NCBI GenBank assembly: GCA_944321445.1
Contig: CALULJ010000010.1
Span: 1-56,251, forward strand
Direction of reading: 5' to 3'
Length of the DNA: 56,251 nt
Source of the DNA: an uncultured Collinsella sp.
GTDB taxonomy: Bacteria > Actinomycetota > Coriobacteriia > Coriobacteriales > Coriobacteriaceae
The position numbers and the translations under genes are program-made. The stretch's first letter is position 1. Every line of letters begins with the position of its first letter. Below the pieces are notes generated by a model, which worked only from the letters and a program-made list of their open reading frames with translations, was not told the DNA's origin and ran no database searches. Positions 10,123-18,705 of this stretch are shown piece after piece.

Positions 10123-11028
10123 ATGGAGCCGATTGTCAAGGGCATGCAGGGACCGGCCGTCGAGGACGTGCAATCCCGACTCGTACAGCTGGGATTCACC
10201 ATCGCAGACGACGAGATTTCCGAGAAGCGCTTTGGCGACACCACCGCGCTCGCGGTGTCCTCGTTCAGGGGCAGCAACGAGCTTGTCCCGGGCGACCAGG
10301 TTGACAGCGCGTGCTGGTCGGCGCTGGTCGACGCCTCGTACAAGCTGGGCGACCGCACACTCTACCTGCGCCTTCCCAATTTCCACGGCGCCGACGTGCG
10401 CGCGTTGCAACAAGCGCTAAACGTGCTGGGATTCGGCTGCGGCGGAGACGACGGTTACTTTGGCCCGCACACCGAGGCGGCGCTGCAGCAGTTCCAGGAG
10501 AACGTCGGCCTGTTCGCCGACGGCATGGCGTTCCAGGACACCTTCCGCTACATCGCGCGCCTGCGCCACGTGTGGGAAGGCAAGCCGTCGGTCGTTGAGG
10601 CCGAGGAGCGTATCGGGTTCGCGCGCGCGGCCGAGGTACTGGAGAACTACAAGATCGCCGTGTGCGGCGAGGACCCCATTGCGCGCAGCGTGGCGTCGCG
10701 CATGTGGAATATCGCGTCGGCGACCACCGAAACGAGCGGCATGGTCCTGTGCGACAACGCCGTGCCCACGGGCATGGACCTTGTGCTGGAGCTTGCGAGC
10801 TCGAGCCTGGGTGAGGACGAGGCGCCGCGCCCGACGATCGTGCTCGCCGAGTGCGCCAACCTGACGCAGCGCATCAGCACCGCATTTGCCGCGGCGAAGG
10901 ACAAGCCCGCGCTCATTCGCATCGAGCTTACGGGTATCACGAGCTTTGACGGCGCGTTCACCTCGAGCGACGCACAGACACTTGCCGTCCGCCTGCTCGA
11001 CGGCGTTTGCGCCGCGCTGAACGATTAG
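10123..11028 (+). CDS. Peptidoglycan-binding-domain protein without signal peptide
   Basis: 301 residues. Two tandem PG_binding_1 type repeats: residues 5-65 (VKGMQGPAVEDVQSRL...FGDTTALAVSSFR) and 78-145 (HGADVRALQQALNVLGF...FGPHTEAALQQFQ). The C-terminal 150 residues look like an alpha/beta fold (YKIAVCGEDPIARSVASRM, PTIVLAECANLTQR) but I see no catalytic zinc ligands. There is no signal peptide or membrane helix, so it is predicted cytoplasmic. That pairing recalls mycobacterial CwlM, a cytoplasmic PknB substrate with the same two repeats that regulates precursor synthesis; the match is by architecture only. AAAGGGG precedes the ATG; starts further up lack one. The next gene is tRNA-Gln. 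Confidence 0.8.
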   Translation: MEPIVKGMQGPAVEDVQSRLVQLGFTIADDEISEKRFGDTTALAVSSFRGSNELVPGDQVDSACWSALVDASYKLGDRTLYLRLPNFHGADVRALQQALNVLGFGCGGDDGYFGPHTEAALQQFQENVGLFADGMAFQDTFRYIARLRHVWEGKPSVVEAEERIGFARAAEVLENYKIAVCGEDPIARSVASRMWNIASATTETSGMVLCDNAVPTGMDLVLELASSSLGEDEAPRPTIVLAECANLTQRISTAFAAAKDKPALIRIELTGITSFDGAFTSSDAQTLAVRLLDGVCAALND

Positions 11029-11079: not shown

Positions 11080-11153
11080 TGGGGCATCGTCCAGCGGCAG
11101 GACCCCGGTTTTTGGTGCCGGTTACGGGGGTTCGAATCCCTCTGCCCCAGCCA
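11080..11153 (+). tRNA. tRNA-Gln (anticodon UUG)
   Basis: The sequence folds into a full cloverleaf. Acceptor arm TGGGGCA (11080-11086) pairs with TGCCCCA (11143-11149), with discriminator G and an encoded CCA at 11151-11153. D arm GTCC/GGAC. Anticodon arm CCGGT/GCCGG with loop TTTTGGT, giving anticodon TTG, which reads CAA and CAG. T arm GGGGG TTCGAAT CCCTC. It starts 49 bases after the PG-binding gene. Confidence 0.96.
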
Positions 11154-11165
11154 CTGCGAATAAAG

Positions 11166-11200
11166 GAAGGCCAGCGGTGAACCCGCTGGCCTTCTCTGTT
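11166..11200 (+). terminator. Terminator after tRNA-Gln
   Basis: Perfect 12-bp arms (GAAGGCCAGCGG, 11166-11177; CCGCTGGCCTTC, 11183-11194) and a five-base loop, followed by TCTGTTAT. Confidence 0.75.
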
Positions 11201-11206
11201 ATAGCG

Positions 11207-11231
11207 GGCTGGGGCAGAGGGATTCGAACCC
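11207..11231 (-). repeat. Inverted copy of the 3' end of tRNA-Gln
   Basis: These bases are the reverse complement of the T arm and acceptor 3' strand of the tRNA at 11130-11152 (shared core GGGGCAGAGGGATTCGAACC). The rest of a tRNA is absent, so this is a fragment. It may be a remnant of a second tRNA gene on the minus strand or a half attachment site. Confidence 0.7.
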
Positions 11232-11280: not shown

Positions 11281-11325
11281 CGCAAGGGCGGCACAGCCGC
11301 CCGCAGTGGGAGACCTGTCCCAAAA

Positions 11326-11403
11326 GAGGCCAAAGTGGCGTCTCCCACCCCCGTCCCCAGAGAGGACAAAATGTCCCCTACGACCCCCGTCCCCAATGGG
11401 GAC
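11326..11403. repeat. REP-like GGCCAAAGTGGCG and GTCCCC hairpin block
   Basis: Holds GAGGCCAAAGTGGCG, two CACCCCCGTCCCC-type units and the palindrome GTCCCCAATGGGGAC (11389-11403), which touches the stop codon of the next gene. The same string GAGGCCAAAGTGGCG followed by CACCCCCGTCCCCAATGGGG recurs at 18624-18665. Confidence 0.7.
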
Positions 11404-11404
11404 A

Positions 11405-13234
11405 TTAACGGTCGAGGAGCTTGTCGATGCGGTTCATGCTGGCGCGACGGAAGTCTTCGCTCGTCAGGATTTCTTGCGGGATGCGGATGTTGTCGCGCAG
11501 GGCGCGGCGGAACGGAATGCGCAGCGCAGGCGGCAGGTCCTTTACGAGGCGCGTGAAGTCGCGCGGGATGTCCTGGTTGTCTGCAGCGCTCTCGCCGTTG
11601 CCGCCTGCGCGCACGTGGGCGCGCTGAGCCGCGAGCATGGCACGGTAGATGCCGGCGTGTAGGCGGATCTCGGTGACGTTCACCTCGCGAGCTCGCTCGA
11701 CCAGGCGGGCGCCTTCGCGGTCGATGTCGCCCGCGTAGTACACGTAGTCATAGCGATATCCGATGTTATGCAGATATTCGTCGAGCGCATGGGCGATGAG
11801 AATGTTGTGCCCGGCACCGAAGATTACGCCGCCGATGCGCGTGCCGAACAGACGGATGCTACGCTGACCGCGTAGCAGGGTCACGACCTCCTCGTACGTA
11901 TCGATGTTCTCGACCACGAGGAACGGCTGATCGGCCCCGAGCGTATAGAAACCCTGAAGCGGCGTGAGCTGGCGCGAGGCGATGCGCAGCACGTTGGTGG
12001 TCATCCCCTTGGCTGACATGCGGCGCATGAGGCGCTCGCCGCGCTTGCCCTCAAGGGCCTTCTCGTCGCTGAAAATCTGGAACGCACGCTGGCGGCGCGT
12101 GGCATACGGAATCGTCTCGCCCTCATGAGCCGCAAGCCAGGCGCGCACGCGATCGAAATCGTCGGGGCGCTTCTCGCGCTTCGCAGGGACCTGAGCGTTC
12201 TTTCCTTTGTTCTCAGGGAGCTTGCTACTCTTCGTTGGCCTGGCGTTATCGGCCGTCTGCTGGCCGGCAGGCGTATCGCTCCGTAGGCTCAAAACGCGGT
12301 CGCGCACGGATCCCAGCAGCCCGATACCGCGCCTGATGATCGACGGGAATTCAGGGGCTTGCTTATCATCGCGCTTCTTCAGCGCCTTCTCCTGTTTGCT
12401 GGACGGACGCTTTGCCTGTCCGTCCTGAGCAGCGGCATCGCCTTTCTTGCGAGATGCTTTGGGCTTGCGCGCCTCGTTATCGGCTTTGCGCTCCGCAGCA
12501 GGCTCCTTCGCCTTTGTTTTACGCTTTGGCGCACGCTCTGGGCGGTCGGCATCGGAGCCCGAAGCCGGGGCTTCTTCCTCAATAGCTGCAGGCTCGTCGG
12601 TAGATTCCTGCTCGGTCGTGCGGCGATGCCGACGGCGAGACCGGCTGCGCGTTGCGGGCGCAGACTTGCGCGGAGCCTCCGCATCAGCCTTAGAATCAGA
12701 TAGACCTTCCGCCTCCCCATCGCCGGCACCCGGCTGACGGGACCCCTGATTGTCCTCCTCCGCCGCCTCTTTTGCAGCCTGCACATCTTCTACCGGCACA
12801 GCGGCCTCTTCCTCGCCCGCAGCGTCCTCGGGCTCTTCATCGTCTGCATCTGTCGAGACCTCGTCCGCCTCCTCATCGGACGCGTCCTCCGCCTCCTCCT
12901 CTGCAATTTCCGCCCGCAGCTGCTCCATCACGGCGTCGGCATCAATACCAGCCGCCTCGAAGTGAATCTCGTAGGGACCGTAACCGTCATCACCGGTCTG
13001 GATAAGAAGCCCCGCTTCAATCAACGCATCACGCATCGCGTCCGCGTCCTCGGGTGTGCTGAACGACTTGAGCACGCGAAACAGAGCTCCGCGCTTGATC
13101 TTGGGCTCCTTGCGCTCGAGTAGCGTGAGGGCGAGCACCGAGCGCTGGCGGCTGCTGAGAGACACCTTATCGTCCAGCCACGAGGCAAGGAGTTCGACGG
13201 TTTCGGGGCTTTCGGACAACAGGATGCGTTTCAC
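11405..13234 (-). CDS. Orphan JetD-like (DUF2220-type) Toprim protein
   Basis: 609 residues. Residues 1-100 look like a winged-helix module (LSSRQRSVLALTLLERK). Residues about 105-345 are a highly charged, low-complexity linker, first acidic then Lys/Arg-rich. The C-terminal 230 residues resemble JetD, the Toprim nuclease subunit of Wadjet plasmid-defence systems: RQRAFQIFSDEKAL, then FLVVENIDTY with Glu442, a GAGHN turn, and YYAGDIDREGARLVERA with Asp503 and Asp505, the expected metal ligands. No jetA, jetB or jetC gene lies nearby. A GTG start at 13234 is chosen because GGAGG lies nine bases upstream; the frame stays open to 13453 but that part runs through a repeat element. Function as a nuclease is inferred from family only. 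Confidence 0.75.
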   Translation of the reverse strand: MKRILLSESPETVELLASWLDDKVSLSSRQRSVLALTLLERKEPKIKRGALFRVLKSFSTPEDADAMRDALIEAGLLIQTGDDGYGPYEIHFEAAGIDADAVMEQLRAEIAEEEAEDASDEEADEVSTDADDEEPEDAAGEEEAAVPVEDVQAAKEAAEEDNQGSRQPGAGDGEAEGLSDSKADAEAPRKSAPATRSRSRRRHRRTTEQESTDEPAAIEEEAPASGSDADRPERAPKRKTKAKEPAAERKADNEARKPKASRKKGDAAAQDGQAKRPSSKQEKALKKRDDKQAPEFPSIIRRGIGLLGSVRDRVLSLRSDTPAGQQTADNARPTKSSKLPENKGKNAQVPAKREKRPDDFDRVRAWLAAHEGETIPYATRRQRAFQIFSDEKALEGKRGERLMRRMSAKGMTTNVLRIASRQLTPLQGFYTLGADQPFLVVENIDTYEEVVTLLRGQRSIRLFGTRIGGVIFGAGHNILIAHALDEYLHNIGYRYDYVYYAGDIDREGARLVERAREVNVTEIRLHAGIYRAMLAAQRAHVRAGGNGESAADNQDIPRDFTRLVKDLPPALRIPFRRALRDNIRIPQEILTSEDFRRASMNRIDKLLDR

Positions 13235-13361
13235 AGGCGGGTACCTCCGGCAAAAGCGCGTAAAGCGCGGGCAATCGAATGAACGGTTTGCATCGTAGCA
13301 CAGGCCCCGCCAGGAGCGCAGGAACAGGACACGTACGCGACGGCACACCACAAGGCAGAGC

Positions 13362-13690: not shown

Positions 13691-15538
13691 TTACGCAACG
13701 TCCTTGGCGCCGGTGGTGTGCGCGGCTTCCGCGGCCTCGGCCTGAACGTGCGCACGGCCCATCTCGGTCCACTCGGGCTCCTCGTCGGGCAGCGAGCCGG
13801 CCTCCTTAGTGAAGAGCTCCTTCAGGCAGTTGTAGGCAACGATGACACCGAGCACCATGAGCAGGATGGCGAAGACCAGCTGCAGGCCGGAGGTCGCGAT
13901 CACGGCGGTGCCGGAGGCGGCCAGCGCGTTCACGCAGCCGATGGTGCTCTGCACGAGCGAGGTGAACGTGCACACCAGCAGGAAGGCGACGGGCACGTAG
14001 AGCATGAAGCCCTTGCGGCCCGTGCACTTGCAGAAGACGGCGAGCGTGATCATGGTCATGCCGCCGAGCAGCTGGTTGGAAGCACCGAACAGCGGCCAGA
14101 TGTTGCTGTAGCCACCGAAGGCCAGCGCAAAGCCCAGGATGAGCGTGAGCACGGTGGCGACCCAGGTGTTGGAGGCGACCTTGGCCACGCCCGTGAGCTC
14201 GGCCTGCTCGTCCTCGAGCGCGTCGTTGGTCTGGGCGAAGAACTCCTGGAACGACAGACGGCCGATGCGCGCGACGGCGTCAACGGAGGTGAGGGCCAGC
14301 GCCGAGACGCACATGGTCATGAACACGGTGGCGAGCGTCTGATCCACGCCGAAGGAGGTCATGCCGCGGGCGATGCCCTGCGAGAAGATGGAGAACGGGG
14401 TCGCGGCGACGCCGTTGTTGAGCGCACCGGTGCCGGCGGTGTTGAGGTCGGAGAACATGATGGCGGCAATGACGATGGCGAGCACGCCCACGAAGGACTC
14501 GAGCACCATGGCGCCGTAGCCCACGGGGAGCATATCCTGCTCCTTCTCGACCTGCTTGGACGAGGTGTTCGTGGAAACAAGGCTATGGAAGCCGGAGAGC
14601 GCGCCGCACGCGACGGACACGAAGAGCAGCGGGAACACGAAGCTGCCGTTGGCGGCCATCTCGCCGAAGTCGACGACCATGGGCGCGGTCATCGTGGCCT
14701 GGCCGTTGGCGCCCAGCACGAAGATGCCCACGACGGCGCAGACGATCATGACGATCATCATGATGCTCGTGAGGTAGTCGCGCGGCTGCTTGAGCGTTTG
14801 GATGGGCATGGCGGCAGCGAACAGCAGATAGACGGCGATGACGGCGAACCAGCCGAGCTTGTCGAGATACACGGGGAACTGCATGCCCACGGCGAACATG
14901 GCGACGAACAGCACGACGGCCAGCGCGAGCTCGCGCACACCGGAGAGCTGGAAGCGACGGTTGAGCCAACCGAAGGCGATGGCCACGAACGTGAACAGGA
15001 TGGAGATGGTGCCCGCAGTGCCGCCGGCGTAGGACTTGGCGGTGTCCACGGCGCCCGCAGCGTCGAAGGTAGCCATGAAAGTGCCTGCGACCATGTCGAC
15101 GAAGGCGGCGATCACGATGATGGTGAACAGCCAGCTGAAGAGCAGGAACAGACGGCGACCGGTACGGCCGATGTACTTCTCGATAAGCTGGGCAAGCGAC
15201 TTGCCGTTGTTCTTCACGCTCGCATACAGCGCGCCGAAGTCGTGCACGGCGCCGAAGAAAATGCCGCCCACGAGCACCCACAGAAGCACCGGCAGCCAGC
15301 CGAACATCATGGCGGCGATGGTGCCCGTCACGGGGCCGGCGCCGCAGATGGAGCTGAACTGGTGCGAGAACGCGGTGAAGCACGAGGCGGGCGAGAAGTT
15401 CTTGCCGTCCTCCATGCGACGGGCGGGCGTCAGCGCATCGCGGTCGACACCCCACTTGGCCGCCAGCCAGCGACCGTACCCGAGGTAGCCGGCAGCCAGC
15501 ACGACGGCTGCCACCACCACTACGACGATTCCGTTCAT
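13691..15538 (-). CDS. cstA: Carbon starvation protein CstA family transporter
   Basis: 615 residues with about 16 membrane helices. CstA-family proteins take up peptides or pyruvate when preferred carbon is scarce. Seen: the family signature around FSHQFSSICGAGPVTGT, then GAVHDFGALYASVKNNGKS, GALSGFHSLVSTNTSSKQ and GGYSNIWPLFGASNQLLGGM. Start 15538 has GGAAAGGA six bases upstream and gives MNGIVVVVVAAVV; a longer frame runs into the leader hairpin. The gene has a leader of about 225 bases with a promoter at 15769-15796 and a terminator-like hairpin, so attenuation-type control is possible. Substrate cannot be read from sequence. Confidence 0.93.
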   Translation of the reverse strand: MNGIVVVVVAAVVLAAGYLGYGRWLAAKWGVDRDALTPARRMEDGKNFSPASCFTAFSHQFSSICGAGPVTGTIAAMMFGWLPVLLWVLVGGIFFGAVHDFGALYASVKNNGKSLAQLIEKYIGRTGRRLFLLFSWLFTIIVIAAFVDMVAGTFMATFDAAGAVDTAKSYAGGTAGTISILFTFVAIAFGWLNRRFQLSGVRELALAVVLFVAMFAVGMQFPVYLDKLGWFAVIAVYLLFAAAMPIQTLKQPRDYLTSIMMIVMIVCAVVGIFVLGANGQATMTAPMVVDFGEMAANGSFVFPLLFVSVACGALSGFHSLVSTNTSSKQVEKEQDMLPVGYGAMVLESFVGVLAIVIAAIMFSDLNTAGTGALNNGVAATPFSIFSQGIARGMTSFGVDQTLATVFMTMCVSALALTSVDAVARIGRLSFQEFFAQTNDALEDEQAELTGVAKVASNTWVATVLTLILGFALAFGGYSNIWPLFGASNQLLGGMTMITLAVFCKCTGRKGFMLYVPVAFLLVCTFTSLVQSTIGCVNALAASGTAVIATSGLQLVFAILLMVLGVIVAYNCLKELFTKEAGSLPDEEPEWTEMGRAHVQAEAAEAAHTTGAKDVA

Positions 15539-18598: not shown

Positions 18599-18705
18599 GG
18601 CCTCTCCGGGGACGGGGTCGGGAGAGGCCAAAGTGGCGCCTGGCACCCCCGTCCCCAATGGGGACAACCCCTGTGGGAAAAAAGTGCCTGTCCCCTTTTT
18701 CCCAC
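18599..18705. repeat. REP-like hairpin cluster
   Basis: Three structures in a row: GGCCTCTCC/GGAGAGGCC (18599-18607 and 18621-18629), GTCCCCAATGGGGAC (18651-18665), and GTGGGAAAA with TTTTCCCAC around AGTGCCTGTCCCC (18673-18705). The third recurs almost unchanged at 44292-44324, and the first part of the block recurs at 11326-11403. Confidence 0.75.

Follow-up and report, generated by a model that had tools for sequence, protein, structure and literature searches.

How the JetABC motor turns on the otherwise silent JetD nuclease is an open question about Wadjet. JetD by itself needs a high concentration to cleave, and the current view is that it stays autoinhibited until JetABC acts (PMC10586767). 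MksG works without MksBEF as a metal-dependent nuclease, converting plasmids to nicked and linear forms (PMC10123090), and structures suggest that Toprim dimers of the JetD/MksG kind read DNA bending (PMC13040014). With a natural family that has the full active site and no SMC motor, it can be asked what JetD is able to do alone, and whether a linker can replace the motor as the switch.

Here we describe such a protein. In the open-access literature we found no description of a standalone or orphan JetD family in Collinsella or the Coriobacteriia (subscription papers were mostly beyond reach), and a survey of actinobacterial defence mentions neither Coriobacteriia nor JetD. We regard the protein as a member of the JetD3 family without the Wadjet system. 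Collinsella and Atopobiaceae, which both carry it, are gut bacteria and hard to manipulate; in them it could be a plasmid or phage barrier.

The gene and its locus

The window, that is, the whole stretch of DNA analysed, is one contig of 56,251 bases in a Collinsella genome of 2.36 Mb (84 contigs, 97% complete). Among named relatives, strains of C. tanakaei are nearest to it. The features referred to below are these, with the basis of each in brackets:

11405-13234, minus strand: orphan JetD3/MksG-type Toprim protein, 609 aa, GTG start (ORF, JetD3 profiles, homologues in the genus)
13243-13248, minus strand: Shine-Dalgarno GGAGGT, 8 nt from the GTG (sequence)
12905-13234, minus strand: predicted N-terminal winged-helix domain, residues 1-110 (model pLDDT mostly >90; wHTH and profile matches)
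12176-12865, minus strand: disordered linker, residues 124-353, acidic then basic (charge count, pLDDT)
11426-12172, minus strand: JetD/MksG/TopoVI-A-like core, partial CAP plus Toprim, residues 355-603 (predicted structure)
11909-11911, minus strand: codon of Glu442, equivalent to MksG Glu236 (motif alignment; PMC10123090)
11726-11728, minus strand: codon of Asp503, equivalent to MksG Asp279 (motif alignment; PMC10123090)
11720-11722, minus strand: codon of Asp505, second Asp of the DxD (alignment)
11471-11473, minus strand: codon of Glu588 in the invariant PQE motif (alignment)
11080-11153, plus strand: tRNA-Gln(ttg), conserved neighbour (tRNA call, synteny)
11207-11231, minus strand: 25-nt inverted copy of the tRNA-Gln 3' end (sequence comparison)
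10123-11028, plus strand: peptidoglycan-binding-like protein, syntenic neighbour (name read from sequence)
13691-15538, minus strand: carbon-starvation protein cstA-like, syntenic neighbour (name read from sequence)

The frame, read from 13234 to 11405, is a real gene. The same ORF was predicted independently by a gene finder based on codon usage, and the Shine-Dalgarno sequence, recognised by eye, lies 8 nt 5' of the GTG. The tRNA-Gln and the tRNA fragment that the first-pass annotation placed beside the gene are both there, the fragment being 25 nt from the 3' end of the tRNA, copied in inverted orientation. The copy lies 54 nt downstream of the tRNA, around a hairpin (window 11128-11231), and two C. 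tanakaei strains (L039, L041) have the same arrangement. An intergenic repeat family (CCCGTCCCCAGAGAGGACAAAATGTCCCC-like), REP- or terminator-like in appearance, is common to window positions 11314-11404 and 18601-18666.

A JetD3-type Toprim core under selection

The C-terminal half of the protein is, on profile matches and a predicted structure, a Toprim nuclease core of the JetD/MksG type and a member of the JetD3 family. Three PADLOC models of JetD3 (type III) match residues 349-598 with E=1e-28, 2e-25 and 3e-22, the best (PDLC00592) giving E=1.1e-28 over 363-598. Pfam and NCBIfam gave sub-threshold matches only, Pfam JetD_C and Toprim among them, and single-sequence searches of the PDB gave no useful match.

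An AlphaFold2 model of the single chain, made from an alignment of 37 sequences (the window protein and its relatives), is confident, mostly at pLDDT >90, in two domains that span residues 1-123 and about 355-603. When the core was folded alone, VIA-align placed C. glutamicum MksG (8b7f) at the top (Z 11.2 over 201 residues, 14% identity), followed by topoisomerase VI-A (Z 9.2), P. aeruginosa type I JetD (7til, Z 9.2 over 141 residues) and Spo11 (7.3), with small Toprim proteins and T7 primase ranking after Spo11. For the core, the whole-protein model gave a similar order. It is VIA-align that gives this clear order; Foldseek alone was much weaker, its best E being about 0.2 with the whole model and 0.003 with the core. 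The prediction and the comparison with JetD thus bear out the JetD-like Toprim fold that had been proposed from the sequence.

The likeness to the described proteins has limits. MksG shares the core fold, the Glu236 and Asp279 equivalents and a two-domain layout with a hinge, but its hinge is short and it works with MksBEF partners, whereas the orphan has a linker of about 230 residues and no MksBEF locus. P. aeruginosa JetD shares the Toprim fold but is a compact CAP-Toprim protein working with JetABC. Outside the order, no proteins are nearer in sequence than the operonic JetD3 of Clostridia (about 23-28% over the core), whose catalytic motifs are identical; they differ in having JetA/JetC beside them, a hinge of 13-14 aa and no extra N-terminal helices. 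The topoisomerase VI A subunit and Spo11 (Z 7-9) resemble the core in their partial CAP plus Toprim arrangement. Both of these use a CAP tyrosine. MksG has no such tyrosine (PMC10123090).

The acidic residues Glu442, Asp503 and Asp505 sit exactly where the first-pass annotation had put them. They belong to a set (E442, N443, Y500, D503, D505, Y530, P586, Q587 and E588) that is invariant in the 37 sequences, 24 from orphans and 13 from operonic JetD3, and the motifs E-N-x-D, GDxDR and PQE are identical in the two groups. In MksG, changing Glu236 or Asp279 to alanine drastically impairs nuclease activity (PMC10123090). The catalytic domain is under strong purifying selection. Between the window and its nearest relative, C. 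tanakaei An791, the dN of the core is 0.075 against a dS of 0.70, and among strains of the C. aerofaciens group it is 0.002-0.005 against 0.4-0.5. The dN/dS of the C-terminal domain is about 0.01-0.25, and the linker is far less constrained and fast-evolving. Since the catalytic residues are invariant and dN in the core is well below dS, the active site is being maintained. We had also considered that orphans in particular have lost one of the two glutamates proposed as catalytic in JetD, but operonic JetD3 have PQE as well, and the idea was rejected; in type I JetD the position presumably reads EQE.

The missing partners

The nearest relatives outside the order are the JetD of typical Wadjet type III operons, with genes in the order D-A-B-C. 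JetC and JetA were counted with home-made profiles in stretches of about 19 kb, some of which represent one locus taken from two collections. One or both lay near jetD at 32 of 33 Clostridia-type loci, the sole miss being a locus that ends at a contig end, and at all five loci from other Actinomycetota. The count with the same profiles was 0 of 90 in the Coriobacteriia stretches. JetA, JetB and JetC are also missing from the neighbourhood of the window gene, as had been noted at first reading, and the orphan state is systematic in the Coriobacteriia.

Genome-wide searches, which covered Wadjet type III, gave a similar picture. The JetA profile found nothing in 398 genomes of the class and scored in five of five control genomes with operons; it missed one real JetA. 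That JetA is in G301 (genus g35), which has JetD-JetA-JetB at a contig end, a 1426-aa JetC on another contig and, in addition, an orphan JetD (L239, L240, L104). Because of this miss the JetA and JetC negatives are not absolute. The JetC profile gave weak matches genome-wide, of 25 bits or less and none convincing in Collinsella, and the one in the window genome is the housekeeping Smc. PF12128 had no match above its cut-off in the 67 genomes of the family.

Distribution and ancestry

Matches to the core occur in 94 of the 398 class genomes and are confined to two families of the order, the window's own family f1 and f2; Atopobiaceae names occur among the named matches. Within the genus the gene is common but patchy, unlike a universal housekeeping gene: 34 of 45 genomes have a homologue and 11 do not. 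At nearly all Collinsella loci examined it lies between tRNA-Gln and cstA, and in four genomes without it (G022, G028, G048, G029) the empty site is intact, with tRNA-Gln directly beside cstA. This synteny argues for an inherited chromosomal gene and against a recent island. Elsewhere the contexts of the orphan are varied and ordinary, for example ribosomal-protein and fusA-like genes in g35. Phage records had no match to the protein, viral contigs had one remote match and the plasmid collection PLSDB had two, a chromosome-sized Collinsella record and a Streptomyces plasmid. The former (NZ_OY725717.1, 899,693 bp, C. aerofaciens) carries the chromosomal locus and is probably a mislabelled piece of chromosome, because it equals a contig of G012 in size.

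The suggestion that tRNA genes and repeats mark this as a defence setting does not survive these observations. With the gene syntenic at tRNA-Gln/cstA through most of the genus, and with phage records free of matches, we see no mobile-element or variable-island location, and we reject a defence-island reading on the strength of the synteny in most Collinsella and of the empty sites. The tRNA-Gln is nevertheless an integration site in the genus, since in G044 an element with an integrase (read from sequence) sits there, in the place of the orphan jetD (L211 3405-7571), bounded by a direct repeat (44 bp) that matches the tRNA 3' end.

In a tree of the core, the Collinsella and Atopobiaceae orphans fall in separate clades. 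The root of this tree depends on one very long branch, and the AU test does not reject a topology with all orphans in one clade (p 0.079).

The linker and the N-terminal domain

Between the two domains of the window protein about 230 residues (124-353; 240 had been estimated earlier) are disordered in the model, mostly at pLDDT <50. The net charge of successive sixths (-22, -5, -1, +7, +7, +4) confirms the order acidic, then basic, that had been read from the sequence. Compared with the hinge of operonic JetD3 in Clostridia, or with that of 29 aa in one deltaproteobacterial operon, the region is expanded in most Collinsella (131-343 aa, but 31 in C. stercoris) and in Atopobiaceae and other f1 orphans (45-225 aa). 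Its sequence is of low complexity and poorly conserved. The C. tanakaei group shows the charge order clearly and C. aerofaciens weakly, and Atopobiaceae are mixed in this respect. A hydrophobic-basic patch (RGIGLLGSVRDRV-like; window 12275-12349, residues about 296-320) recurs in linkers of the C. tanakaei group and is a candidate partner- or membrane-binding motif.

Residues 4-97 of the whole-protein model match winged-helix proteins. The winged helix claimed for the N-terminus thus stands; that it is a different module from that of JetD is less likely, a diverged relative with weak similarity to the JetD3 winged helix being the better description. In hhalign comparisons the Collinsella domain matched its counterpart in the Atopobiaceae orphans over the full length (91 columns, probability 76%). 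Its match to the operonic JetD3 winged helix was weak and limited to the second half of the domain (22%); for the Atopobiaceae N-terminus against the same winged helix the probability was 61%. From these alignments we take the N-terminus to be a JetD3 winged helix that has diverged and carries extra helices at its N-terminal end, in both orphan groups alike.

How the orphan may work

We prefer, with somewhat better than even confidence, the view that the protein belongs to an SMC-free offshoot of the Wadjet type III nuclease subunit (JetD3/MksG), a normal chromosomal gene of Coriobacteriaceae and Atopobiaceae that encodes a self-controlled Toprim endonuclease. Most likely it would act as a Toprim homodimer and, like MksG on its own, cleave duplex DNA in a metal-dependent manner. 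The active site is intact and the JetABC motor is missing, so the orphan needs another switch. With no JetABC to lift autoinhibition, control may have shifted into the protein itself, where the winged helix, tethered by the long disordered linker, could together with that linker hold or guide the nuclease. The acidic part might block the DNA cleft as a DNA mimic, and the basic part and the winged helix might tether the enzyme to DNA. The autoinhibitory role is a guess, because the sequence of the linker is poorly conserved. It also counts against a self-controlled enzyme that MksG and JetD need the SMC complex for specificity, so that a nuclease working without it could have little activity or harm the cell. 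Possible targets are plasmids, phage DNA and structures of the chromosome. More tentatively, and with more doubt than belief, one may imagine that in two gut Actinomycetota families a Wadjet nuclease has turned self-contained and SMC-independent, has placed both specificity and autoinhibition in the expanded acidic-basic linker, and serves as a single-gene sensor of plasmids or phages (or of chromosome topology).

Vertical synteny in Collinsella, ordinary neighbours in other genera and the phage records without a match would also suit a housekeeping chromosome enzyme with no defence role, either a Spo11-like break maker or a nuclease for repair or decatenation. We hold this to be unlikely: the gene is dispensable, being absent from 11 of 45 genomes in the genus, of which four show the intact empty site, its nearest relatives are Wadjet nucleases, and a compact relative in C. 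stercoris adjoins pPIWI-RE defence genes. Taken together, defence-gene kin and dispensability speak mildly for defence, and synteny and plain contexts speak mildly against it. The C. stercoris locus (L032 9412-18037) has the compact orphan JetD followed by a 157-aa gene and by PprRE, PprDinG and PprPIWI; it is possibly a mixed defence locus. Scarcely any credence goes to the orphan being a decaying, functionless relic of a lost Wadjet operon. The long, low-complexity, fast-evolving linker and the absence of the gene from some species might be so read, but the frame is open, the catalytic domain is under strong purifying selection in many species and the active-site residues are all kept.

The remaining possibilities supply the orphan with a motor. 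Housekeeping Smc-ScpAB could substitute for JetABC, its loop extrusion bringing the nuclease to plasmids or colliding DNA. The parts are at hand: ScpA is found in the window genome (C36:5065-5748) and in all 67 genomes of the family, a gene of ScpB size adjoins scpA, Smc lies beside what we read as ftsY and ffh, and the recurrent hydrophobic-basic patch in Collinsella linkers could serve for contact. However, genomes that lack the orphan have ScpA just the same, so its presence alone does not discriminate, and we noticed no linkage to smc, scpA or scpB in the listed loci. The JetD of Wadjet, moreover, has a dedicated motif for its contact with JetB (PMC10586767), and on the whole we find the substitution distinctly improbable. 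A complete Wadjet acting in trans, with JetABC elsewhere in the genome or diverged beyond recognition, is very improbable, given that the JetC and JetA profiles found nothing convincing in Collinsella, that the weak JetC match in the window genome is Smc, and that PF12128 gave nothing above cut-off in the family. In its favour are the incomplete assembly of the window genome (97%, in 84 contigs) and the case of G301, whose JetA escaped the profile. The same G301, with a Wadjet type III operon and an orphan JetD together, offers a natural test of their coexistence.
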